Assembly (NCBI RefSeq): GCF_000512735.1
Contig: NZ_CP007028.1
Location: 434,001 to 498,000 of the forward strand
Direction: 5' to 3'
From: Thermocrinis ruber
GTDB lineage: Bacteria > Aquificota > Aquificia > Aquificales > Aquificaceae
Length of the DNA: 64,000 nt
Under the pieces are notes generated by a model that searched no databases, was not told where the DNA came from, and saw nothing but the letters and a program-made list of their open reading frames with translations. The position numbers and the translations under genes were made by a program. Shown here one piece after another: positions 8,754-46,722 of the stretch (position 1 is its first letter; each line of letters starts with the position of its first letter).

Positions 8754-9799
8754 TCCTGCTCTTTAGCCTTGCCTATGGTACGAAGATCAGAGACATAGCG
8801 GTTATAGAGGGGCATAGGAGCAATTATCTGGTAGGTTATGGTCTGGTGGTAGGTTTGAAAGGTACAGGAGACGGCAAGGCTACACTTTTCACCGTAAGGA
8901 GCATAGCAAACATGCTCAACCGTATGGGCATTGCAGTGGATCCACGTAGGATCACTGTAAAGAATGTGGCGGCGGTAATGGTAACTGCCAAGCTACCCCC
9001 ATACGCAAAGCCGGGTATGAGCATAGATGTGGAGGTTGCGTCCATAGGAGACGCCAAGAGCTTGGAGGGTGGAACCCTCTTGCTAACACCCCTCAGAGGG
9101 GCAGATGGAGAGATATATGCCTTAGCCCAGGGGCAGGTAATCGTGGGCGGATACGAAGCGAGGGGTCAGGGAGCCAGACAAATTCAGAACACACCCACAG
9201 TGGGAAGGATTCCCAACGGTGCAATAGTGGAAAGATCCCTACCCGAGTATCCGCAGAGGGAAGAGGTATTCCTTTACTTAGATAATCCCAGTTTTTCTTT
9301 AGCAAAGCATATCCAAGATAGAATAAACACCGAGTTTGGACAGAATGTGGCGCAGGCTTTGGATAGTTCCACCATAAAGCTCAGGGTTCCACAGGGTATG
9401 AGCGTCGTGGATTTCTTAGCCCGTGTGGAGGACATAGAGGTGGATGTGCCCTCCGTTGCCAAAGTGGTCATAGACGGAAGGACAGGGACCGTCCTGCTAG
9501 GTGGAGATGTGGTTATAAACCCTGTCTCTGTGGCAGTGGGCACGTTGACGGTTACTATAAAGGAGACTCCCCAAGTTTTTCAACCTCCACCCCTTTCACC
9601 TGGGCAGACGGTGGTGGTGCCAAGGACGGAAGTCAAAGTGGAGGAAAAGGAAAGGCGCCTCGTTGAGCTTAGGGGTGCCACCGTATCCCAATTGGTGGAA
9701 AGTCTAAACAAGCTTGGTGCCACTCCAAGGGAGATCATATCTATACTTCAGGCTATAAAGTCTGCGGGTGCCCTGCGGGCAAAGTTAGAGGTCCTTTAG
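8714..9799 (+). CDS. flgI: Flagellar P-ring protein FlgI
   Basis: A 361-residue periplasmic P-ring subunit. Residues 1-24 form a cleavable signal peptide (LALLVLLFSLAYG), followed by the family's opening IRDIAVIEGHRSNYLVGYGL and the GLKGTGDGK motif. The C-terminal region has the ATVSQLVESLNKLGATPREI helix typical of FlgI. Assembly with FlgH makes the bushing for the flagellar rod, so the cell is expected to be motile. The last 4 bases overlap the convergent ugd gene. Confidence 0.95.
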   Translation: MVGSHIGKGLALLVLLFSLAYGTKIRDIAVIEGHRSNYLVGYGLVVGLKGTGDGKATLFTVRSIANMLNRMGIAVDPRRITVKNVAAVMVTAKLPPYAKPGMSIDVEVASIGDAKSLEGGTLLLTPLRGADGEIYALAQGQVIVGGYEARGQGARQIQNTPTVGRIPNGAIVERSLPEYPQREEVFLYLDNPSFSLAKHIQDRINTEFGQNVAQALDSSTIKLRVPQGMSVVDFLARVEDIEVDVPSVAKVVIDGRTGTVLLGGDVVINPVSVAVGTLTVTIKETPQVFQPPPLSPGQTVVVPRTEVKVEEKERRLVELRGATVSQLVESLNKLGATPREIISILQAIKSAGALRAKLEVL

Positions 9800-11106
9800 G
9801 GCACTCCCACTCCGTAGTACTCAAACCCAAGCCCTCTAACCACCTTGGGTTCGTATATGTTCCTGCCGTCTATTATTATGGGAAGTTCCATGAGCTCCTT
9901 TACCCTGCTTAGGTCTGCCCTTTGAAACTCCTCCCATTCGGTAAAGATGAGCAGTGCGCTGGCACCTTCCACCGCGGAGTACATATCTGGTGCATAATCT
10001 AAGTCCTTGCCGGGAGGATACAGTTTTTTAAAGTTCTCCATAGCCTTCGGGTCGTAGAGCTTCAGGCGGGCACCTTCCTTCAAAAGCATGGGCACCAGTC
10101 TTAGGGAGGGAGCCTCCCTTATATCGTCAGTGTTTGGTTTAAAGGATAGTCCCCAAACTGCCAAGGTTTTATCCTTCAAGCTCCAAAGCACAGATTTGAC
10201 CTTTTCCACAAACTGGACAGCCCTCCTCTGGTTGATCTTATCTACTTCCTCCAAGAGGGAAAAATCCACGCCATGATCTTTAGCCATCTTTATAAAAGCC
10301 TTTATGTCCTTTGGGAAACAACTACCGCCCCAGCCTATGCCCGCCCTGAGGAACTCCCTGCCGATCCTCTTGTCATACCCCATTCCTTCCGCCACAAGCC
10401 TAACATCCGCCCCAACCTTCTCGCACAGGTCTGCCACCATGTTTATGTAGGAGATCTTCATAGCCAAGAAGGAGTTGGACGCATGCTTTATAAGCTCGGA
10501 GGTGGCAGGGTCTGTAAAGATAATAGGGCATTTAAAGTCTTTGTAGAGCTCCTCCATTATCCGGCGTGCCCTCTCACTTTCCACACCTATTACTATTCTG
10601 TCGGGTTCCAGAAAGTCTCTCACCGCACTGCCTTCCCTCAAAAACTCCGGGTTTGATACCACATCAAACTCTAAAATCTTTCCTCTCCTTTTCAAATACC
10701 GCTCCACGGTCCTTTTTATGAGCTTATGGGTGTTGACGGGAACGGTAGATTTTTCCACCAAAAGCTTGTAGCTTTCCATAAGCTTGGCGGTTTCCCTTGC
10801 CACCTCCTCCACCTGAGAAAGGTCCGCAGAACCATCGGGCCTTTGAGGAGTACCCACGCATATGAATATCACATCCGAAAAGTCAAGACCCTCCTTTAGG
10901 TCCGTGGTAAAAAAGAGCCTTCCCAGGCTTAGGTTTTCCTTCAGCATTTCCTCCAAGCCCGGTTCATAAAAGGGCACCTTTCCCTCTTTCAAAGTCTGAA
11001 CCTTCTCAGGCAGTTTTTCCACCACCATAACCTCGTTGCCAAGGTGGGCAAAGCACACTGCGGTGGTAAGCCCCACATACCCTGCTCCTACTACCGTCAG
11101 CCTCAT
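9796..11106 (-). CDS. ugd: UDP-glucose 6-dehydrogenase
   Basis: A 436-residue NAD-dependent enzyme oxidising UDP-glucose to UDP-glucuronate in two steps, for exopolysaccharide or lipopolysaccharide sugars. It has the N-terminal Rossmann motif VVGAGYVGLTTAV, the ESTVPVNT-type segment KSTVPVNTHKL, the catalytic thiol in GWGGSCFPKDIKAF, and a C-terminal UDP-binding domain containing WGLSFKPNTDDIREAP. A clear GGAGG precedes the ATG at 11106. It lies 10 bp after cysM and at the far 3' end of the nuo transcription unit. Confidence 0.93.
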   Translation of the reverse strand: MRLTVVGAGYVGLTTAVCFAHLGNEVMVVEKLPEKVQTLKEGKVPFYEPGLEEMLKENLSLGRLFFTTDLKEGLDFSDVIFICVGTPQRPDGSADLSQVEEVARETAKLMESYKLLVEKSTVPVNTHKLIKRTVERYLKRRGKILEFDVVSNPEFLREGSAVRDFLEPDRIVIGVESERARRIMEELYKDFKCPIIFTDPATSELIKHASNSFLAMKISYINMVADLCEKVGADVRLVAEGMGYDKRIGREFLRAGIGWGGSCFPKDIKAFIKMAKDHGVDFSLLEEVDKINQRRAVQFVEKVKSVLWSLKDKTLAVWGLSFKPNTDDIREAPSLRLVPMLLKEGARLKLYDPKAMENFKKLYPPGKDLDYAPDMYSAVEGASALLIFTEWEEFQRADLSRVKELMELPIIIDGRNIYEPKVVRGLGFEYYGVGVP

Positions 11107-38075: not shown

Positions 38076-39131
38076 ATGGACAGGAGGAATTTTATTAAGC
38101 TTTCTGTAAGCAGTCTTGCCCTTTCAGTTCTTAACTTTCCTCAGCTTTCCTTTTCTTCAACCAAAAAAGAAAGGGCGAAGCTGATATATTCTGCCAAGCT
38201 TCCCTACGAGGGTAAAGTTAGGCTTTGGCTACCAGTACCTATGAATACAGATTATCAAAGGTTGTTAAGCTTGGAAATAAAAGGCACTCACTCGTTGAGT
38301 AGGCTTACTAAAGATGCGGTATATTCGGCACCCATACTATACTTGGAGTTTCCCGATAAGAATGAAAAGCAGGTGGAAGTTATATTTGATGTGGAATTTT
38401 GGTCAAGGAATGTAGATCTGAAGAAATTACCAAAGAACAATACCCACATACCTTCTGAGGTTGCCCTTTATCTCAAACCTACCAAACATATACCCACCGA
38501 TGGAATAGTTAAAGAGTATGCGAATAAAATCACCAAGGGTCTTAGCACAGATTACAGCAAAGTTAGGGCTATATACGATTGGGTAGTGGATAATACTTTT
38601 AGGGACCCCAAAGTTTTGGGGTGTGGCACTGGGGATGTAAAGGCTATGCTGGAAAGTGGATACTTTGGTGGAAAATGCACGGATATAAATTCCCTATTTG
38701 TAGCCCTTTGCCGAGCGTCCGGAATTCCCGCAAGGGAAATCTTTGGCATTAGGGTTAAAGCATCATCCCTATCCAAGGGCATATCTGATGTAGCGGGAGA
38801 TGCAACAAAAGCACAACACTGTAGAGCTGAGTTCTGGTTAGGACAGTGGGTACCTGCAGACCCGGCAGATGTAAGGAAGTTTATACTTGAGGAAAAGATA
38901 GATAGTATAAAAGATGAGAGGGTAAAGTTCATTAGGGAATTTATGTTCGGTGGATGGGATTTACATTGGGTTGCCTTTAACTACGCAAGGGATTTTGAAC
39001 CCGAGCCTCCTTTGAGCAGTAGGGAGACTATAAACGAGTTAATGTATCCCATAGCGGAGGTTTCTGGGAAATTGGTAGATAAATATAAGCTGACCTTTGA
39101 ACAATCCAAGTATAGAGTAGAGGTTGTATAA
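38076..39131 (+). CDS. Tat-exported transglutaminase-like protein
   Basis: A 351-residue protein. The N-terminus MDRRNFIKLSVSSLALSV fits a twin-arginine signal, so a folded protein is probably exported. The C-terminal half is a transglutaminase-like cysteine-protease-fold domain, with Cys201 in GGKCTDINSL, His248 in AQHCRAEFW and Asp262 in PADPADVRK as the likely triad. Such domains act as peptidases, amidases or cross-linkers on unknown targets. It lies between selA and selD on the same strand, 11 bp before selD, and so is probably co-expressed with the selenocysteine genes. I know of no role for such an enzyme in selenium use. Confidence 0.8.
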   Translation: MDRRNFIKLSVSSLALSVLNFPQLSFSSTKKERAKLIYSAKLPYEGKVRLWLPVPMNTDYQRLLSLEIKGTHSLSRLTKDAVYSAPILYLEFPDKNEKQVEVIFDVEFWSRNVDLKKLPKNNTHIPSEVALYLKPTKHIPTDGIVKEYANKITKGLSTDYSKVRAIYDWVVDNTFRDPKVLGCGTGDVKAMLESGYFGGKCTDINSLFVALCRASGIPAREIFGIRVKASSLSKGISDVAGDATKAQHCRAEFWLGQWVPADPADVRKFILEEKIDSIKDERVKFIREFMFGGWDLHWVAFNYARDFEPEPPLSSRETINELMYPIAEVSGKLVDKYKLTFEQSKYRVEVV

Positions 39132-39142
39132 AAATTGAAAAG

Positions 39143-40159
39143 ATGGAACTTTTGAAGCTTGTCAGGGCATCCGGTTGAGCGGCTAAGGTAGGTCCGGGGG
39201 ACCTAGAAAAGCTCCTGGCGGGGCTAAACCCATACACGGATGAGCATACCCTTTTGGGTATGGGAGATGACGCGGGGGCATATGAATACAATTGGTCAGT
39301 GTTTTTGCATACGGTGGATTTTATAACTCCCGTAGTCAATGACCCATACCTTTGGGGTGCTATATCCGCCGCCAATTCCCTTAGCGACATATACGCCACC
39401 GGAGGAGTTCCTCTAACAGCCCTTGCGGTGCTTGGCTTTAACCATTGCCAGCTTTCTTCGGAGGTCTTAAAAGAGGTGCTCAGGGGTGCCACGGACAAAC
39501 TAAGGGAGGCAAAGACTGTCCTTTTGGGCGGTCATACCGTAGACGACCAAGAGCCCAAGTTTGGGTTGGCGGTCTTTGGAGTTTGCCCATCTGGAAAGCT
39601 CTTAACACAGAGTGGAGCCAAACCCGGCGACCTTCTTTACATCACAAAACCCATAGGCGTGGGCATACTAACCAAGGCTATAAAGGAAGGGAAGATTGAA
39701 GAGAAAGATATCCCGGATGCAATTCAAAACATGCTACTTTTGAACGATAGAGCGGGCGAGCTTGCCCTAAGGGTAAATGCCAACGCCTGCACGGACATAA
39801 CCGGCTTTGGGCTTTTGGGTCATGCCTACAATGTAGCCAAAAAATCGGGAGTAAAGTTAATAATAGACTTCTCAAGGGTGCCCTTTTACGAGCAGTCTGC
39901 CCACTTTGCGAAGATGGGCATATATCCCAAGGGTGCGGTGGATAACTTTAACTTTGTGAAGCCCTCCCTTAGTTTCTCCGGCTTGGAAAGATGGGAGCTG
40001 ATCCTTCTATCGGACCCTACCACCTCCGGCGGGCTTCTTTTTACGGTTCCCAAAGAAAGAGAAAGAGATGTGCTTGCTTTAGCTAAAGAATTAAAGGTTA
40101 GCCTGCGGCATGTAGGTTGGGTTGAGGAGGGCGAAGGTTTGGAAGTTATTAAAACATAG
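39143..40159 (+). CDS. selD: Selenide, water dikinase SelD, a selenoprotein (Sec12, UGA read-through)
   Basis: Makes selenophosphate from selenide and ATP. The frame must be read from ATG 39143 through an in-frame TGA at 39176-39178. This gives 338 residues and the usual SelD N-terminus with Sec at residue 12 ([13 protein letters not shown]), where other SelD proteins have Cys or Sec, followed by the catalytic Lys15. Translation from a later ATG (39254) would lack the whole catalytic loop. Other motifs are [23 protein letters not shown] and [20 protein letters not shown]-like hairpin follows the TGA. No strong ribosome-binding site is visible. The stop codon directly touches the end of selC on the other strand. 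Confidence 0.95.
39177..39214 (+). promoter_or_regulatory. SECIS element of selD
   Basis: Ten bases after the UGA, TAGGTCC (39189-39195) pairs perfectly with GGACCTA (39199-39205) around a GGG loop. A lower stem GAGC (39177-39180) with GCTC (39211-39214) encloses it and includes bases of the UGA. Size and spacing match bacterial SECIS hairpins read by SelB. Confidence 0.85.
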
Positions 40160-40255
40160 CGGGAGAGCAAGGGAATCGAACCCTCCAGGGATTGCCAGAG
40201 CAACCCCTCACGGGATTTGAAGTCCCGGGGCGGCACCAGCCTGCCACGCTCTCCC
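40160..40255 (-). tRNA. selC: tRNA-Sec (anticodon UCA)
   Basis: A 96-nt tRNA read from the minus strand. The 8-bp acceptor stem is GGGAGAGC/GCTCTCCC with discriminator G at 40160. The D-stem is GGCA/TGCC, and the anticodon stem CGGGA/TCCCG holds the loop CTTCAAA with UCA at 40218-40220. A long variable arm (GGGGTTGC/GCAATCCC, one G-U pair) and a T-arm with loop TTCGATT complete it. These are the hallmarks of bacterial tRNA-Sec. The 3' CCA is not encoded. Its first base is the last base of the upstream gene's TAG stop, and its discriminator base is adjacent to the selD stop codon. Confidence 0.97.
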
Positions 40256-40776
40256 TATTTCCTTGGCAAACACTCTATTTGTTCTCTTATTATAAACTGC
40301 CTTATGGTATCCACCACTTCCTCAGCCCTTTTGAGCCTTTTGAGGCTTTCCGTATCTTCAGATTCAACCTTGACGAGCCATGCGTTGTAAGGGTCGCTGA
40401 TCAGGGGGCTTGGGTCCTTTTCAAGCTTGGAATTTTTATCCACTATTTTCCCACCCAAGGGAGAGGGAAAGGTGGATACTCTCTTGCCCGCCTCCACTAC
40501 CGCTAAGTTTCCATCGTATTCCACCACTGTACCCACCGGCTTGATCTTTACCGAATAAAGGGGATACACAAGGGCTGAAAGGATGGGTGTAAAGCCCACC
40601 GAATAAATGTTCTTTCCCTCCTTTTTTATCCACTGAAAGATCATCCTGTCTTCGTTTATTCTGTAGAGCCTATCCCTTTTTAGCTTACAACCGAACACAT
40701 CGATATCCTTTTCCACGTTAGCCCTCGCCAGAAAGGAAAAACTCAAGAACTTTAAAAGAAACCGCCTGTCTATCAT
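40255..40776 (-). CDS. GcvH-like lipoyl-domain protein with an export-signal-like N-terminus
   Basis: A 173-residue protein whose residues about 25-165 resemble the glycine-cleavage H protein. The strand IYSVGFTPILSAL, the hairpin AVVEAGKRVST with candidate lipoylated Lys98, and SPLGGKIVDKNSKLEKDP then DPYNAWLVKVE all align with GcvH. The first about 20 residues (DRRFLLKFLSFSFLARA) are not part of GcvH and look like a short twin-arginine signal with an ARA cleavage site. No gcvP or gcvT is nearby. It is the last protein gene of the formate dehydrogenase operon, with its start overlapping fdhE by 4 bases and its stop overlapping selC by 1. Function unknown; a redox, sulfur or C1 carrier is possible. 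GcvH-like proteins act as lipoate-binding sulfur carriers elsewhere in sulfur oxidisers. Confidence 0.75.
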   Translation of the reverse strand: MIDRRFLLKFLSFSFLARANVEKDIDVFGCKLKRDRLYRINEDRMIFQWIKKEGKNIYSVGFTPILSALVYPLYSVKIKPVGTVVEYDGNLAVVEAGKRVSTFPSPLGGKIVDKNSKLEKDPSPLISDPYNAWLVKVESEDTESLKRLKRAEEVVDTIRQFIIREQIECLPRK

Positions 40777-41543
40777 AAACCCAAGAGGTTCTTTTCATAC
40801 CTTTCAAAGCCCTGCTGTCTTGCCCAGAGGTCTAAACTTAATGTGGCAAGGTCGTCAATATGGGGAACCGCCAATCCATCAACCCTTAGGTCTATTACCT
40901 TTAGGTATGTGTTGCACTTTTTGCAAACATGCAGTTGAACATACCTGTTCCCTTCCTCGTGGATGTATTCAAAGTGATCATCCTCCACATTTCCACATTT
41001 TGGGCACTTGGTCCGGTAGTATAGCCAACCGGTATTGCACAGCACACAACTCAGATACCTCCCCCCTTCCACATCCTCCGTATCCATAATGTAAGAAACG
41101 GAGGGACGAAAGCCACATACGGGGCACTTTTCCTTTAGCCAATTTTTGAGGTCTGCGTCCGTGCTTTCAGCCATTATGGAGAAAAAAGGGTTCAAAAAGG
41201 ACAAAAATATGAACCTCTCCTCCTCCGGTGCCCACCTCTCCTTGAGAAACTCTGCTATCAGCTTTTCTATCTCTTCTTTACCCAAAGCCATCAAACTTTG
41301 CGCGGTTTCCCTAAGGGTTTCAGAGCCGTAGCTTATGCAGAGTTCCAATAGGGAATAAAATTCTTTTAAGCCTTTTCTCCAGTTGCTTTCCCCTTTGTTT
41401 TCAAGCTTTTCGTAAAAGTCTAACTGCCACCGGAGGACCTTTTCCATAAAGCTAAGAATTTCCTCCGCCTCCGGGTGCTTAGCCTTTAGGTGCTGTAGTC
41501 TGCTTATGCTGTATTCTCTTTCTTTTAACCTCACAATGCTCAT
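40773..41543 (-). CDS. fdhE: Formate dehydrogenase accessory protein FdhE
   Basis: A 256-residue cytosolic protein needed for activity of Tat-exported formate dehydrogenases. The C-terminal part has four CxxC-type motifs: CPVCG, CVLC, CPKCG and CKKC, as in rubredoxin-like FdhE. The N-terminal half is helical. It overlaps sodC and the GcvH-like gene by 4 bases each, so translation is likely coupled. Confidence 0.93.
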   Translation of the reverse strand: MSIVRLKEREYSISRLQHLKAKHPEAEEILSFMEKVLRWQLDFYEKLENKGESNWRKGLKEFYSLLELCISYGSETLRETAQSLMALGKEEIEKLIAEFLKERWAPEEERFIFLSFLNPFFSIMAESTDADLKNWLKEKCPVCGFRPSVSYIMDTEDVEGGRYLSCVLCNTGWLYYRTKCPKCGNVEDDHFEYIHEEGNRYVQLHVCKKCNTYLKVIDLRVDGLAVPHIDDLATLSLDLWARQQGFERYEKNLLGL

Positions 41544-42058
41544 TGTTTTATTACTCCGCAGGCGATCCTTGGTCCCGCATGTCCCGCTGGGTCTGTTTTG
41601 TGATCATCTGGATGCTGGTGGATCATGATGGAAGTTCCTCCTTCCTTAAAGAGGCTGTTTGGCTTTCCACGCTCAAGGGTCACAAAGGTGTTGAGAACAT
41701 GCACCCTCAGGTTGCCGTTGGCATCCGTAAACACGTTCGGCATGTCTCCTGCGTGTGGTCCCTCAGGGTTCAAGAGCCCGTGTTTTTTGTTGAAGGGATT
41801 AAAGTGTCCTTTGGCAGACATAAAGTCCGGCGGATCGCATTTTCCAAGTTCGTGTATGTGAAGGGCAAGCTCTGCGTTGGGGGGAAGTCCCTTAACATCC
41901 AACTTTATTAGTACTCCCGAGTTGGTTTGTATCAGTTCAGCTTTACCAACCTTTTCACCTTTTTGATTTATGAGCTCTGCAGACGCTTTCAACTCTTGGC
42001 TAAGTGTAAAAGTTGGAAGGACCGCCAGGGCGGCGGTCAAAAGCTTTAAAGCCCTCAT
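41540..42058 (-). CDS. sodC: Superoxide dismutase [Cu-Zn]
   Basis: A 172-residue exported Cu/Zn SOD. A signal peptide covers about residues 1-20. Metal ligands are in LHIHELGKCDPPDF (His-x-His), the GHFNPFNKKHG segment, GPHAGDMPNV and the late MIHQHPDDHKTDPAGHAG region. A disulfide is expected between the Cys of ELGKC and the Cys in PRIACGV. It should detoxify superoxide in the periplasm. It lies inside the formate dehydrogenase operon between fdhC and fdhE with ATGA overlaps, which suggests protection of the exported, oxygen-sensitive selenoenzyme. Confidence 0.95.
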   Translation of the reverse strand: MRALKLLTAALAVLPTFTLSQELKASAELINQKGEKVGKAELIQTNSGVLIKLDVKGLPPNAELALHIHELGKCDPPDFMSAKGHFNPFNKKHGLLNPEGPHAGDMPNVFTDANGNLRVHVLNTFVTLERGKPNSLFKEGGTSIMIHQHPDDHKTDPAGHAGPRIACGVIKQ

Positions 42059-42696
42059 GGCTCTCTCCTCCCAATAATTTGCTTAAACCACTTGGGATGA
42101 TGTGAGGCAGCCCAAAGGGCGGATACCTTCCCAGTTATCATACTGCTCAGAGAACCGGGCACCCCAATGGTTCCCATATAAACATGCACTATAAAGCCCG
42201 CACCCACCACTATGAAGGCAATTTCGTGCAACAATATAGCCCACCTGACCAGGGTTATTGAAAAGCTATTCGGAAACCACATAACCAATCCAGAAATCAG
42301 GAACACCGCACTTCCTATGAACACGATCCACCCAAAGAGTTTTTGCCCTGCGTTATATTTCCCCGCCTCTGGCAGTTTTTCCTCCTCTCCCTTTATGTAG
42401 TGTTTTACGCCCTTCAGCCACTTTATGTCGTCCGCATCCAAAATAAAATCCTTTGCCCATTTGAGGAACATCAAGAACACTCCCACCGAATAGACGATGC
42501 CAGCAATGGGATGTAGCCATGCGGAAAACTCCTTACCCCCCAGCACAGTCAAAAGCCAGCTAAACTTGGGAGAGTATATACCAAGACCCGAGAAAAACAG
42601 ATACAGGAAAGATATTGCCACAAGCCAATGTATAAATCTTTCAAAGGCTGAGAACCTTTGAACTTCCACATCCTCAAGGTTTTTTGTGTGTTCCAT
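42055..42696 (-). CDS. fdhC: Formate dehydrogenase cytochrome b556 (gamma) subunit
   Basis: A 213-residue, four-helix cytochrome b of the FdnI/FdoI family. Candidate heme ligands are the histidines in RFIHWLVAISF, SAWLHPIAGIVY and LLHEIAFIVVGAGFIVHVYMG. It anchors FdhAB at the outer face of the membrane and passes formate electrons to quinone. It begins 3 bp after fdhB, and sodC starts on its stop codon. Confidence 0.92.
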   Translation of the reverse strand: MEHTKNLEDVEVQRFSAFERFIHWLVAISFLYLFFSGLGIYSPKFSWLLTVLGGKEFSAWLHPIAGIVYSVGVFLMFLKWAKDFILDADDIKWLKGVKHYIKGEEEKLPEAGKYNAGQKLFGWIVFIGSAVFLISGLVMWFPNSFSITLVRWAILLHEIAFIVVGAGFIVHVYMGTIGVPGSLSSMITGKVSALWAASHHPKWFKQIIGRREP

Positions 42697-42699
42697 GGC

Positions 42700-43587
42700 T
42701 TACTCCTCCTTCTTTTCTTTCTTACCCACCTTTATGGGTCCAAAGAGTATTAGCTGTAGGAAGGCACCCAACAGAGAAGCCCACAGGATCACGCTTCCCA
42801 CCAGCTTTACGGGACCCTTCCACAGGCTAACAAGGGGAGATATACTCGCCTCTTTGGGAAGCCCATACATCTCCGGCTTATCTCCATGGGGTAGAACATA
42901 GATGTATCCAGTTCCTCCCACACCGGGTGGGTCGTATATAGCCGCATTTTCAAAGCCTCTCTGCTTTAGCTGTGCCACGATCTTTTCAGCCCTATGTAGC
43001 ATCTCCTCCCTTGTGCCAAAGTGCAGACAGTTGGTAGGACAGGTTTTCACACAGGCAGGCTCAAGCCCCGCAGAGACCCTATCCACACAGAAGTTGCACT
43101 TCCACGGCTTGTTGTTGGCGTCGTACCTTGGAATATCAAAGGGACAGCCTGAAAGGCAGAATTTACAGCCTATGCACTTGGAATGGTCAAAATCCACTAT
43201 GCCGTTTTGGTATTGAATAACCGCACCCGGCGAAGGGCAAGCCTTTAGACAACCAGGGTCCCCACAGTGCATGCATTGGTATTTGGCTATAAACCAGGTT
43301 AGCCCCTTCTCTGTTTCCGCCTCCCTGAACTTCATCATCATAAATACGCTGGGCATTAGGTCCGGATAGGATTGATATCCCACTGGTGCCTGTTCCTCCG
43401 GTAAAAGTGGGGGCTTAAGGTCGTGCCACTGGGCACATGCCGCCTCACAACCCTTACATCCTATGCAGGAGGAAACATCTACCAATATGGCTAACCTGTC
43501 CGCGGACTTTACCTCCGCGGGTGCCTTGGAGGCAGACACCCGCTTTAGCCCTGCTCCAACAGTTCCTCCAACGGTAACTGTGCTCAT
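42700..43587 (-). CDS. fdhB: Formate dehydrogenase iron-sulfur (beta) subunit
   Basis: A 295-residue protein with four [4Fe-4S] motifs of the FdnH/FdoH type: CIGCKGCEAACAQW, CMHCGDPGCLKACP, CIGCKFCLSGCP and CNFCVDRV with CVKTCPTNC. A single C-terminal helix (SVILWASLLGAFLQLILFG) fixes it in the membrane next to the cytochrome. It has no signal of its own and is probably exported with FdhA through Tat. It lies 13 bp after fdhA. Confidence 0.94.
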   Translation of the reverse strand: MSTVTVGGTVGAGLKRVSASKAPAEVKSADRLAILVDVSSCIGCKGCEAACAQWHDLKPPLLPEEQAPVGYQSYPDLMPSVFMMMKFREAETEKGLTWFIAKYQCMHCGDPGCLKACPSPGAVIQYQNGIVDFDHSKCIGCKFCLSGCPFDIPRYDANNKPWKCNFCVDRVSAGLEPACVKTCPTNCLHFGTREEMLHRAEKIVAQLKQRGFENAAIYDPPGVGGTGYIYVLPHGDKPEMYGLPKEASISPLVSLWKGPVKLVGSVILWASLLGAFLQLILFGPIKVGKKEKKEE

Positions 43588-43600
43588 TGCATTACCTCCT

Positions 43601-46600
43601 TTATGCTTTTACCTTTTCTATGTTGCATAGGAACCCCTTGAACTCGGGCGTTTGAGAGTTGGGGTCCCACACATAGGGCGTTGCCAAGTTGGCAAGGGCA
43701 CCCTTCACAAAGCCCTCAAAGCCCCAGTGAATGGGTATGCCAACGGTATAGACCTTTTTACCGTTTACGATCAGAGGCTTGATCCTCTTGGTAGGGAGGG
43801 CGTAGGCTTCCGCAGAACCCCTTGCGGTCACGATCCTGACCTTATCTCCCTCTTTTATGCCAAGCTCCTTAGCCAACTCCTCTGGTATTTCTACAAAGAT
43901 CTTCTGGAATAGAACAGAAGCCCCATATACATGCTTTGTCCAGAAGTGGAAATGCTCAGTAAGCCTGTAGGTGGTGGCACAGTAGGGGAACTTGTCGGGG
44001 GTTCCCAAAAGGTCCAGCTCAGACTTATAGATCTTAACTACTGGGTTGGTGGAGGTCTTAGGATGTAACACATTTTGGACGGGCGATTCGTAGGGTTCGT
44101 AGTGTTCGGGGAAGGGTCCGTCCGCAAGGAAGAAGTTATAGAGCCTGCCTCTACCCTCCGGTAGCATTATGAAGGGACCATACTCTGGTGGCAGGTCGGG
44201 TTTTATGTCTGGCACATCGTGCCCAACCCACTTGCCTTCCTTTTCGTCCCACCAGAGCAGTTTCTTCTTAGGAGACCAAGGCTTACCCGTTGGGTCTGCA
44301 GAGGCCCTGTTGTATAGGATCCTCCTGTTGGCGGGCCAAGAGAAGCCAAAGTTGGGATATATGCCCAGCCCAGAGGGGTCGGATAGGTCTGTGTTCTTTG
44401 CCCTGTTTCCAGACTGAGGATACACTCCGCAGTATAGCCACATACCGCAGGCGGTGGTTCCGTCATCCCTCAACATGGTAAAGCTGGGCAATCTTTCGCC
44501 CTTCTTCACCACCACATTACCCTTATCGTCCGTCAAGTCCGCAAGAGCCACGCCGTTTATCTCCAGGGCAAGAACCTCATCCGCAGTGGGCTCGTAGGGG
44601 TTCTTATAGGGCCAGCGTGCCTTCAGTATTGGATCGGGGAATTTGCCACCCTCCTTTTGGTAGAGTTCTTTTAGTTTCATGTAAAGCCTTCCTGCGATCC
44701 AGTATTCAGACTTGGCATCCCCGGGTGGGTCCACCGCCTTGTATTGCCAAGATAGACGCCTTCCGCTGTTAGTCTTTGTTCCCTCCTTCTCCGCAAAGAG
44801 GGCGGAGGGCAAGAGCAGAACTTCCGTCTTTACCGCCTCTGGGTTTTTGGCTTGCTTCCAGAAGGACGCCATCTCTGTTTCAAAGAGTTCCACCACCACC
44901 ATCCACTTGAGCTTGGACAGAGCTTCCACGGTCTTATTCACATTGGGCGTGTTAGCCAGAATATTCACACCCAAAGAGACCAAACCCTCCATCTTACCTC
45001 TATACATCCTGTCAATGGCTTCATCCCAAGCAATGACCTTATCCTGCTTTGGCAGGAAGTGATAGGCAAAGTCGTTCTCGGGAGTGGCCGCATCTCCGTA
45101 GTATGCTTTTAGCAGGGAGACAATGAACTTTGAGTAGTTGGACCAGTAGTTCATGGAGCCTTCGTCCCAAGGCTTGGGTGTGTTCGCTTCAATGTAATCC
45201 TTTAGGGTTTGCTGTTCGGGTTTAGGTGGTCTGAGGTAGCCATGCAGGAACCTACCCTCACCCGCCAAGTCCGTCACACCCTGCACATTAGAATGTCCTC
45301 TGAGTGCGTTTATTCCTCCTCCGGGCACACCAATATTGCCCAAAAGCAGTTGAAGGATCGCCATAGAACCTATCACCTGCGTGCCCCAGCTGTGATGGGT
45401 CCAACCTAAGGCGTAAAGGTGTGTCATGGATTTGTCTGGCGCACCAGTCTCCGCTATGATCTTTGCCACCTCCAGGAACTTTTCCTTTGGAACACCCGTT
45501 ATCTTTTCCACAACCTCCGGCGTGTATCTTGAATAGAACTGCTTGAGGAGTTGGAAGACGCACCTTGGATGTTCCATGGTCATATCCTTCTTGACCATGC
45601 CCTTTTCGTCCCTTTCATAATCCCAAAGCTTGGTGTCATACCTTCTCTTCTCTGGGTCGTAGCCGGAGAAAAGTCCAGTTTCGGGGTCAAAGTTGTAGGT
45701 GTCCTTCACTATGTAGGTGGCGTTGGTAAAGTGTCTTACATACTCTTCGTTGTATTTTTTGTTCTGGAGAACATAGTTTATCAGACCACCCATAAAGGCT
45801 ATGTCGGAACCGGGTCTTATTTGAACGAATATGTCCGAGACCGCTGCAGTTCTTGTGTAGCGCACATCAACGCATATAATCTTTGCACCCCTTTCCTGTC
45901 TTGCCTTTATTGCCCATTTGAAACCGCATGGATGGTTTTCAGCCGGGTTCCCTCCCATAACAAACACAACATCTGCGTTCTTTATGTCCTCCCAAGAGTT
46001 GGTCATTGCACCCCTGCCAAACCTTGTGGCCAAACTGGCCACCGTGGGTGCGTGTCATATTCGTGCCTGCGTCTCTAAAGCTGTTAAGCCAAGTATTCTG
46101 CCCAGCTTGATCCATAGGTAAGCTGCCTCGTTTTCCATTATGGAGCCCGTCAGCCAAAAGATGCTCTCGCACCTATTTACCACCCTACCCTCTTGGTCTG
46201 TTTCAATAAAGGTCCTGTCCCTGGTATCCTTTATAAGCCTTGCCATTTTCTCTATGGCTTCGTCCCAACTGATCTCCTTCCACTCTTTGGAACCAGGCGC
46301 CCTGTATAGGGGTTTTGTGAGCCTCCTCGGAGAGTTTATAAAGTCCTTAAGAGTAGCACCTTTGGGGCAGAGGGTCCCTCTGTTGACGGGCGTGTCTGGG
46401 TCCCCTTCCACATGGATCACTCTCGGCTTTACGTTCGCTGCGCCATCCGTAAGGCTGTATATGAGCACACCGCAGGACACAGAACAGTAAGGGCATATGC
46501 TCTTAACTGCCTTGGCTTTAGAAATTTTCAACTCCTGAACCCTTGCTAAGGCGGGCTTTATATCAAAGCCCAAAACACCAGCCACGCTGGCACCAACAGA

Positions 46601-46642
46601 CAATCCAGAAGCCTTAAGGAAAGTCCTTCTGGTAAGCTCCAT
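43601..46642 (-). CDS. fdhA: Formate dehydrogenase catalytic (alpha) subunit, selenoprotein (Sec196)
   Basis: A 1,013-residue Mo/W-bisMGD enzyme oxidising formate to CO2 at the outer face of the membrane. The true start is ATG 46642, with GGAGGTG six bases upstream. It opens the Tat signal MELTRRTFLKASG, and an upstream TTG at 46708 only adds leader. Cys50, Cys53 and Cys57 (CPYCSVSC) start a [4Fe-4S] site. An in-frame TGA at 46055-46057 encodes Sec196 in the active-site motif ARI-U-HAPTV, continuing to FGRGAMTN. E. coli FdnG has Sec at the same position and nearly the same length. Read without Sec, the gene would appear as two fragments. Confidence 0.96.
46008..46051 (-). promoter_or_regulatory. 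SECIS element of fdhA
   Basis: Twelve bases after the UGA on the minus strand, GTGGCCA (46042-46036) pairs with TGGCCAC (46032-46026) around a GTT loop. This is the same 7-bp stem and 3-nt loop plan as in selD. A lower stem GCACCC (46051-46046) with GGGTGC (46013-46008) closes an asymmetric internal loop. Confidence 0.85.
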
Positions 46643-46661
46643 TTTTTGCACCTCCTTCTGG

Positions 46662-46679
46662 TTTGAATGGTAATTCAAA
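46662..46679. promoter_or_regulatory. Inverted repeat in the fdhA leader
   Basis: TTTGAAT and ATTCAAA, a perfect 7-bp inverted repeat around four bases, lies seven bases upstream of the fdhA ribosome-binding site (46649-46655). It could be a second operator or a small RNA hairpin affecting translation start. Confidence 0.5.
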
Positions 46680-46722
46680 GGTTTTTGTTTAGCCATAGAA
46701 ATTTTCAAAGGATAACTTTTAG

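Follow-up and report, generated by a model that had tools for sequence, protein, structure and literature searches.

Formate dehydrogenases (FDHs) need a sulfur at their molybdenum that oxygen strips off, and its insertion into bacterial FDHs by FdhD is well studied. FDH cannot do without this Mo sulfido ligand, which is quickly lost in O2. The ligand can be restored by sulfide together with a reductant, with no chaperone involved, and in another FDH superoxide oxidises it to sulfite (PMC12140954). FdhD works in the cytoplasm, as does its desulfurase. The fdhD gene is almost always found near fdh operons, yet it is absent in some organisms that express FDH, a caveat raised in a 2023 review (PMC10609526).

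The lipoyl proteins LbpA1 and LbpA2 belong to the sHdr system, and LbpAs have been told apart from the glycine-cleavage H protein GcvH by a pair of conserved cysteines, one towards each end of the chain (Cao et al. 2018, PMC6067878). Dihydrolipoate was found to accept sulfane sulfur (PMC6067878). Here we describe a gene within an fdh operon whose product resembles these carriers.

The lipoyl-protein gene and its operon

The window, the whole stretch of 64,000 nucleotides from Thermocrinis ruber that was analysed, contains an fdh operon on the minus strand with the order fdhA, fdhB, fdhC, sodC, fdhE, lipoyl-protein gene and tRNA-Sec. By lipoyl protein we mean the predicted product of the last protein gene of this operon (40776–40255). 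The features, in the order of the operon, are as follows.

43601–46708, minus strand: fdhA, FDH catalytic subunit with the Tat signal TRRTFLK, two ORFs in one frame
42700–43587, minus strand: fdhB, FDH beta subunit (TIGR01582, 445 bits)
42055–42696, minus strand: fdhC, FDH-N cytochrome b (gamma) subunit (TIGR01583, 233 bits)
41540–42058, minus strand: sodC, gene for a Cu/Zn superoxide dismutase that appears to have a signal peptide, shared by at least 14 of the 23 operons
40773–41543, minus strand: fdhE, FDH accessory protein, directly upstream of the lipoyl-protein gene in 23 of 23 loci
40255–40776, minus strand: lipoyl-protein gene, predicted LbpA-like carrier with GCV_H fold, 173 aa from an ATG start, 23 orthologues
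40159–40255, minus strand: tRNA-Sec (selC), anticodon TCA, directly following the lipoyl-protein gene in 22 of 23 loci

The two ORFs of fdhA are separated by an in-frame TGA at 46055–46057, which we read as selenocysteine, and the split is conserved in relatives. FdhABC is probably a periplasm-facing, selenocysteine-containing enzyme. The overlaps of 4 bases between fdhE (end at 40773) and the lipoyl-protein gene and of 1 base between the latter and tRNA-Sec (40255–40159), both reported in the original prediction, were confirmed. The sodC gene is an odd neighbour for FDH.

Among 64 Aquificaceae genomes, an FDH gamma subunit above the cut-off, FdhE and the full lipoyl protein were each found in 23, and the 23 genomes were identical in all three cases. 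A lipoyl-type carrier tied to FDH had been proposed from the window, and this co-occurrence, together with the constant position directly after fdhE, upheld it. Homologues lacking the N-terminal extension and scattered away from fdh genes, which the original prediction had named as evidence against itself, were not found, as all 23 full orthologues have both the extension and the neighbouring fdhE. The lipoyl protein therefore represents a conserved, FDH-dedicated family. Five genera mix genomes with and without FDH (2/7, 1/7, 10/17, 4/5 and 6/14 with FDH), thus the FDH and the lipoyl-protein gene came or went jointly several times. Broken remnants of the lipoyl-protein gene were detected beside tRNA-Sec in two FDH-less genomes, G049 and G042. 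These are pseudogenes (L063 about 9653–9994, minus strand; L065 3842–4069) in genomes that have lost FDH.

With the family profile (E <= 1e-20) no match was obtained among 136 genomes from other families of the phylum. A search of plasmids returned GCV_H matches alone, with less than 36% identity and none reaching the N-terminal extension, and a contig search with a single lipoyl protein gave three close relatives. One contig from a record titled as an Acidobacteria MAG (L039) matched G040:C18, an Aquificaceae contig of 15254 bases, and its label or binning looks wrong.

In five loci (L053 10481–11593, L058, L059, L060 and L062) a gene for a NifS-type cysteine desulfurase follows tRNA-Sec; its identity was confirmed for the copy in G001. 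This desulfurase may provide sulfur for FDH, or selenium for Sec.

Relationship to LbpA and GcvH proteins

The original prediction described a gene for an H-protein fold with Lys98 as candidate for lipoylation, and both Pfam and our alignment agree with it. Pfam gave GCV_H as the sole match of the lipoyl protein, over residues 40–159 (E=2.8e-29), and no match to the FdhD-NarQ family; in the alignment the lipoyl lysine position corresponds to Lys98, within EAGKRVSTFPSPLGG. Three residues of interest were invariant.

40687–40689, minus strand: Cys30 codon, LbpA-type N-terminal cysteine, invariant in 23 of 23
40483–40485, minus strand: Lys98 codon, candidate lipoylation site, invariant in 23 of 23
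40270–40272, minus strand: Cys169 codon, LbpA-type C-terminal cysteine, invariant in 23 of 23

An AlphaFold2 model of the lipoyl protein was confident from the beginning of the lipoyl domain onward, with a mean pLDDT of 86.6 and values below 50 for residues 9–21. When this model was used for a fold search, the best PDB matches were glycine-cleavage H proteins. The T. ruber genome encodes TatC and three lipoate-ligase-type proteins. Judged by its sequence, the lipoyl protein probably carries lipoic acid.

Fold and lipoyl-lysine position are thus common to the lipoyl protein and GcvH. The differences are a score of 56.7 bits against the GcvH equivalog TIGR00527, which is below the cut-off of 115.85, the two extra cysteines, and the lack of glycine-cleavage genes around any of the 23 loci in our neighbourhood check. 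That no glycine-cleavage partners adjoin the gene had already been noticed for the window. The gcvH of T. ruber, with an ESVK motif, lies elsewhere in the genome (C1:378494) and adjoins a 451-aa ORF that we read as a putative gcvPA. Altogether the T. ruber genome encodes five GCV_H proteins of similar size: the GcvH-type protein, two proteins of an sHdr-type cluster, a third LbpA-like protein, and the lipoyl protein. The third LbpA-like protein (L068 9083–9523) has no sHdr genes nearby and is present in each of the eight Aquificaceae genomes chosen for the tree.

With LbpA1 and LbpA2 (PMC6067878) the lipoyl protein has in common the GCV_H fold, the lipoyl lysine, the cysteines near both ends and a motif of the ESGK/EAGK type. 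It differs from them in having a putative RR signal peptide and in being encoded with FDH instead of sHdr. In a tree built by a quick method and with no outside root, the lipoyl protein was placed with LbpA1 (SH-aLRT 100), on a long branch (2.85). The identity to the cytosolic LbpA-like proteins of Aquificaceae was about 29–35%. The genes are not located in an sHdr cluster; in T. ruber the shdr-type cluster with LipS1 lies elsewhere in the genome. Judging by the invariant cysteines and Lys98 and by the strict linkage to FDH, we are highly confident that it is an LbpA-like protein dedicated to FDH, although it is found outside any sHdr cluster. Its earlier description as GcvH-like holds for the fold, but the protein is of LbpA type and not a modified GcvH. 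The family is related to the sHdr sulfur-oxidation carriers of Aquificaceae and would have gained a twin-arginine signal. The possibility of an unmodified GcvH whose N-terminus arose by chance was ruled out by the conservation in 23 of 23 orthologues and by the model scores.

The N-terminal extension and a possible internal start

The extension that precedes the lipoyl domain contains the following features.

40720–40776, minus strand: putative twin-arginine signal peptide, residues 1–19, MIDRRFLLKFLSFSFLARA, RR invariant, a separate region of low confidence in the model
40762–40767, minus strand: Arg4-Arg5 codons, invariant arginines in 23 of 23
40714–40716, minus strand: GTG at codon 21, a possible internal start; all 23 members have ATG, GTG or TTG at the aligned position

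Among the 23 orthologues the consensus of the extension was mostly [S/R]RRx[F/L][L/I]K, with a hydrophobic stretch behind it, in accordance with the Tat motif (S/T)RRxFLK. The codons for Arg4 and Arg5 vary between five synonymous forms (AGG, AGA, CGA, CGG and CGT), while both residues are arginine throughout. For close pairs of genes, pN/pS was 0.32 over the extension and 0.20 for the rest of the lipoyl protein. As the extension is kept in 23 orthologues, with RR invariant over synonymous codons and a pN/pS of 0.32, it is not a product of chance, and on this codon evidence selection acts on the twin-arginine peptide. The lipoyl protein is probably exported from the cytoplasm via Tat, as far as the sequence can indicate. 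The uncharged stretch after RR was short, 8–14 residues with a median of 11, where the Tat signals of FdhA from these genomes have 16, and a stretch of at least 13 residues, as expected for Tat, was present in 7 of the 23 members. Of the Tat-type N-terminus in the original prediction, the twin arginine stood, and the hydrophobic part is short for a Tat signal.

A start-type codon was found at codon 21–24 in 23 of 23 genes (ATG in 19, TTG in 3 and GTG in one, that of the window), kept despite indels, and this is where LbpA1 begins. The pairing with the ribosome at this internal start had a median rank of 0.22 (22nd percentile), which is modestly better than average. Since the internal start codon is conserved, an added cytoplasmic form of the protein is possible. 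A wrongly assigned start cannot by itself account for the extension, given the synonymous change of the RR codons and the pN/pS of 0.32.

The locus of G001 contains the same fdh-sodC-fdhE operon. We take G001 to be, almost certainly, Aquifex aeolicus VF5 and its gene aq_1052 to be the orthologue of the lipoyl-protein gene. Translation of the G001 gene (L053 9842–10369) from TTG codon 33 gives a protein of 16.18 kDa, which matches the 16.2 kDa listed for aq_1052, annotated as gcvH1 (PMC10052474). The public gene model appears truncated and would lack the RR signal as well as the first conserved cysteine, and the protein may therefore have escaped notice.

Absence of FdhD and possible roles of the lipoyl protein

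Of the 23 genomes with FDH-N and the lipoyl protein, 21 turned out to lack FdhD. In the other two, G028 and G029, FdhD was present beside a different, NAD-type FDH cluster with an alpha subunit of 942 aa (TIGR01591), preceded by NuoE-like and NuoF-like genes as read by eye. In these Hydrogenobacter-group genomes the NAD-type clusters end in fdhD (L155 2897–8925 in G029, L156 1707–7706 in G028). We did not regard this as a contradiction, as the FdhD belongs with the NAD-type FDH. That FdhD was overlooked by the search was also dismissed, because E. coli, M. jannaschii and other controls were positive and several of the FdhD-less genomes consist of a single contig. Growth of Thermocrinis ruber on formate has been reported (PMC4318418), in which case its FDH works without FdhD.

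Elsewhere in the phylum an FDH gamma subunit above the cut-off was found in G119 and G133 only, both with FdhD. In G133, from another Aquificota family, the last two genes of the operon are fdhE and fdhD, and by eye the next gene looks moeA-like. In this gene order fdhD fills the slot that is held in Aquificaceae by the lipoyl-protein gene. FdhD and the lipoyl protein would thus have the slot after fdhE and the presumed task of serving the Mo centre of FDH in common; they differ in that they have no sequence relationship and in that FdhD is cytoplasmic and has a cysteine loop instead of lipoate (PMC10609526).

The lack of FdhD, the fdhD slot in the relative, the NifS-type desulfurase of five loci and the presence of SodC in 14 or more of the 23 operons together indicate either sulfuration of the Mo centre or upkeep of thiols; SodC also fits a protection against oxygen. 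As a lipoyl carrier is both an acceptor of sulfur and a dithiol of low potential, we propose delivery of sulfur to FDH or its repair. The lipoyl protein would most likely receive its lipoyl group and fold in the cytoplasm, before Tat exports it to act on FDH in place. There lipoyl-Lys98 could act as a swinging arm and, helped by Cys30 and Cys169, take up sulfane sulfur, and the dihydrolipoyl form would pass sulfur in reduced state on to the Mo-bisMGD centre, where it would install or restore the labile sulfido ligand. The lipoyl protein would in this way stand in for the FdhD that is absent from nearly all these genomes. Lipoylation, export, sulfur binding and transfer to FDH are steps that we infer. 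That a lipoyl sulfur or thiol carrier supplies or restores the sulfido ligand in some such way we consider quite possible, though a little short of probable. The full version, in which a Tat-exported protein with lipoic acid outside the cytoplasm (re-)sulfurates FDH in the periplasm, replaces FdhD in Aquificaceae and repairs the enzyme in place after oxygen damage, is more tentative and on the doubtful side.

Several points speak against this mechanism. FdhD acts in the cytoplasm before export, thus an exported substitute would work at a different stage. A single origin would account for all 23 cases, so that the complementarity of FdhD and carrier is one evolutionary event, with two FdhD-type FDH-N genomes in the phylum for comparison. 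Sulfuration of FDH is chemically possible without a chaperone, and a replacement of FdhD may therefore be unneeded. The short hydrophobic stretch of the signal also speaks against a mechanism based on export.

A role as exported dithiol reductant is unlikely but deserves attention. In this reading FDH would be switched on after exposure to oxygen when either a regulatory disulfide or an oxidised ligand of its active site is reduced by the cysteines and by the lipoyl group (about -0.29 V), with no transfer of sulfur. The low lipoamide potential and the oxygen protection suggested by SodC agree with it, and the FDH of D. vulgaris is activated via reduction of an allosteric disulfide, in vitro by DTT (PMC11323313). 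The absence of FdhD and the occupation of the fdhD slot would however be left unexplained, and the operon contains no obvious periplasmic electron donor.

We judged it improbable that the protein made from the internal ATG, GTG or TTG start is a cytoplasmic substitute for FdhD, acting to sulfurate FDH ahead of export, with the longer RR form as a minor, dual-targeted or chaperone-binding product. The start-type codon at the position where LbpA1 begins, its ribosome pairing and the cytoplasmic location of FdhD and its desulfurase would be accounted for, but purifying selection acts on the RR peptide, in which neither arginine varies, and the upstream start overlaps or adjoins the fdhE stop, as in translational coupling.

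Apart from the FDH linkage, we found no specific support for the electron or C1 carrier of the original prediction, in which lipoamide would take electrons or a one-carbon unit straight from formate oxidation. The electrons already reach quinone via FdhB and FdhC, no lipoamide-linked partner enzyme is encoded in the operon and the LbpA-type cysteines suggest sulfur; the role is very unlikely, and the evidence points to sulfuration or thiol upkeep. A periplasmic carrier for Sox- or sHdr-linked sulfur oxidation, whose gene is no more than a passenger of the fdh operon, would fit the LbpA features and the oxidation of sulfur compounds by Aquificaceae. It is highly improbable, as genomes with LbpA1 but without FDH also lack the lipoyl protein and no sulfur-oxidation genes surround its loci. 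That the protein is simply an H protein of glycine cleavage, or a lipoyl relay, whose extension has no significance, as the GCV_H fold and the GcvH1 annotation in A. aeolicus might suggest, is extremely unlikely in view of the score below the GcvH equivalog cut-off, the ESVK-containing GcvH already present in T. ruber, the FDH-only distribution and the invariant RR.

To return to sulfur delivery, the lipoyl protein may be an unrecognised route for sulfurating or repairing FDH, and the conserved lipoyl carrier that FdhD-less organisms encode in this operon makes an open question of FDH maturation directly testable. If true, lipoic acid would gain a role outside the cytoplasm, and a thermostable factor would be at hand to preserve the activity in air of FDHs, enzymes sought after for CO2 reduction.

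A transglutaminase-like protein with a twin-arginine-type N-terminus of its own (MDRRNFIK) is encoded upstream of selD in the window (38076–39131), and a further copy was found near the fdh operon of G001 (L053).
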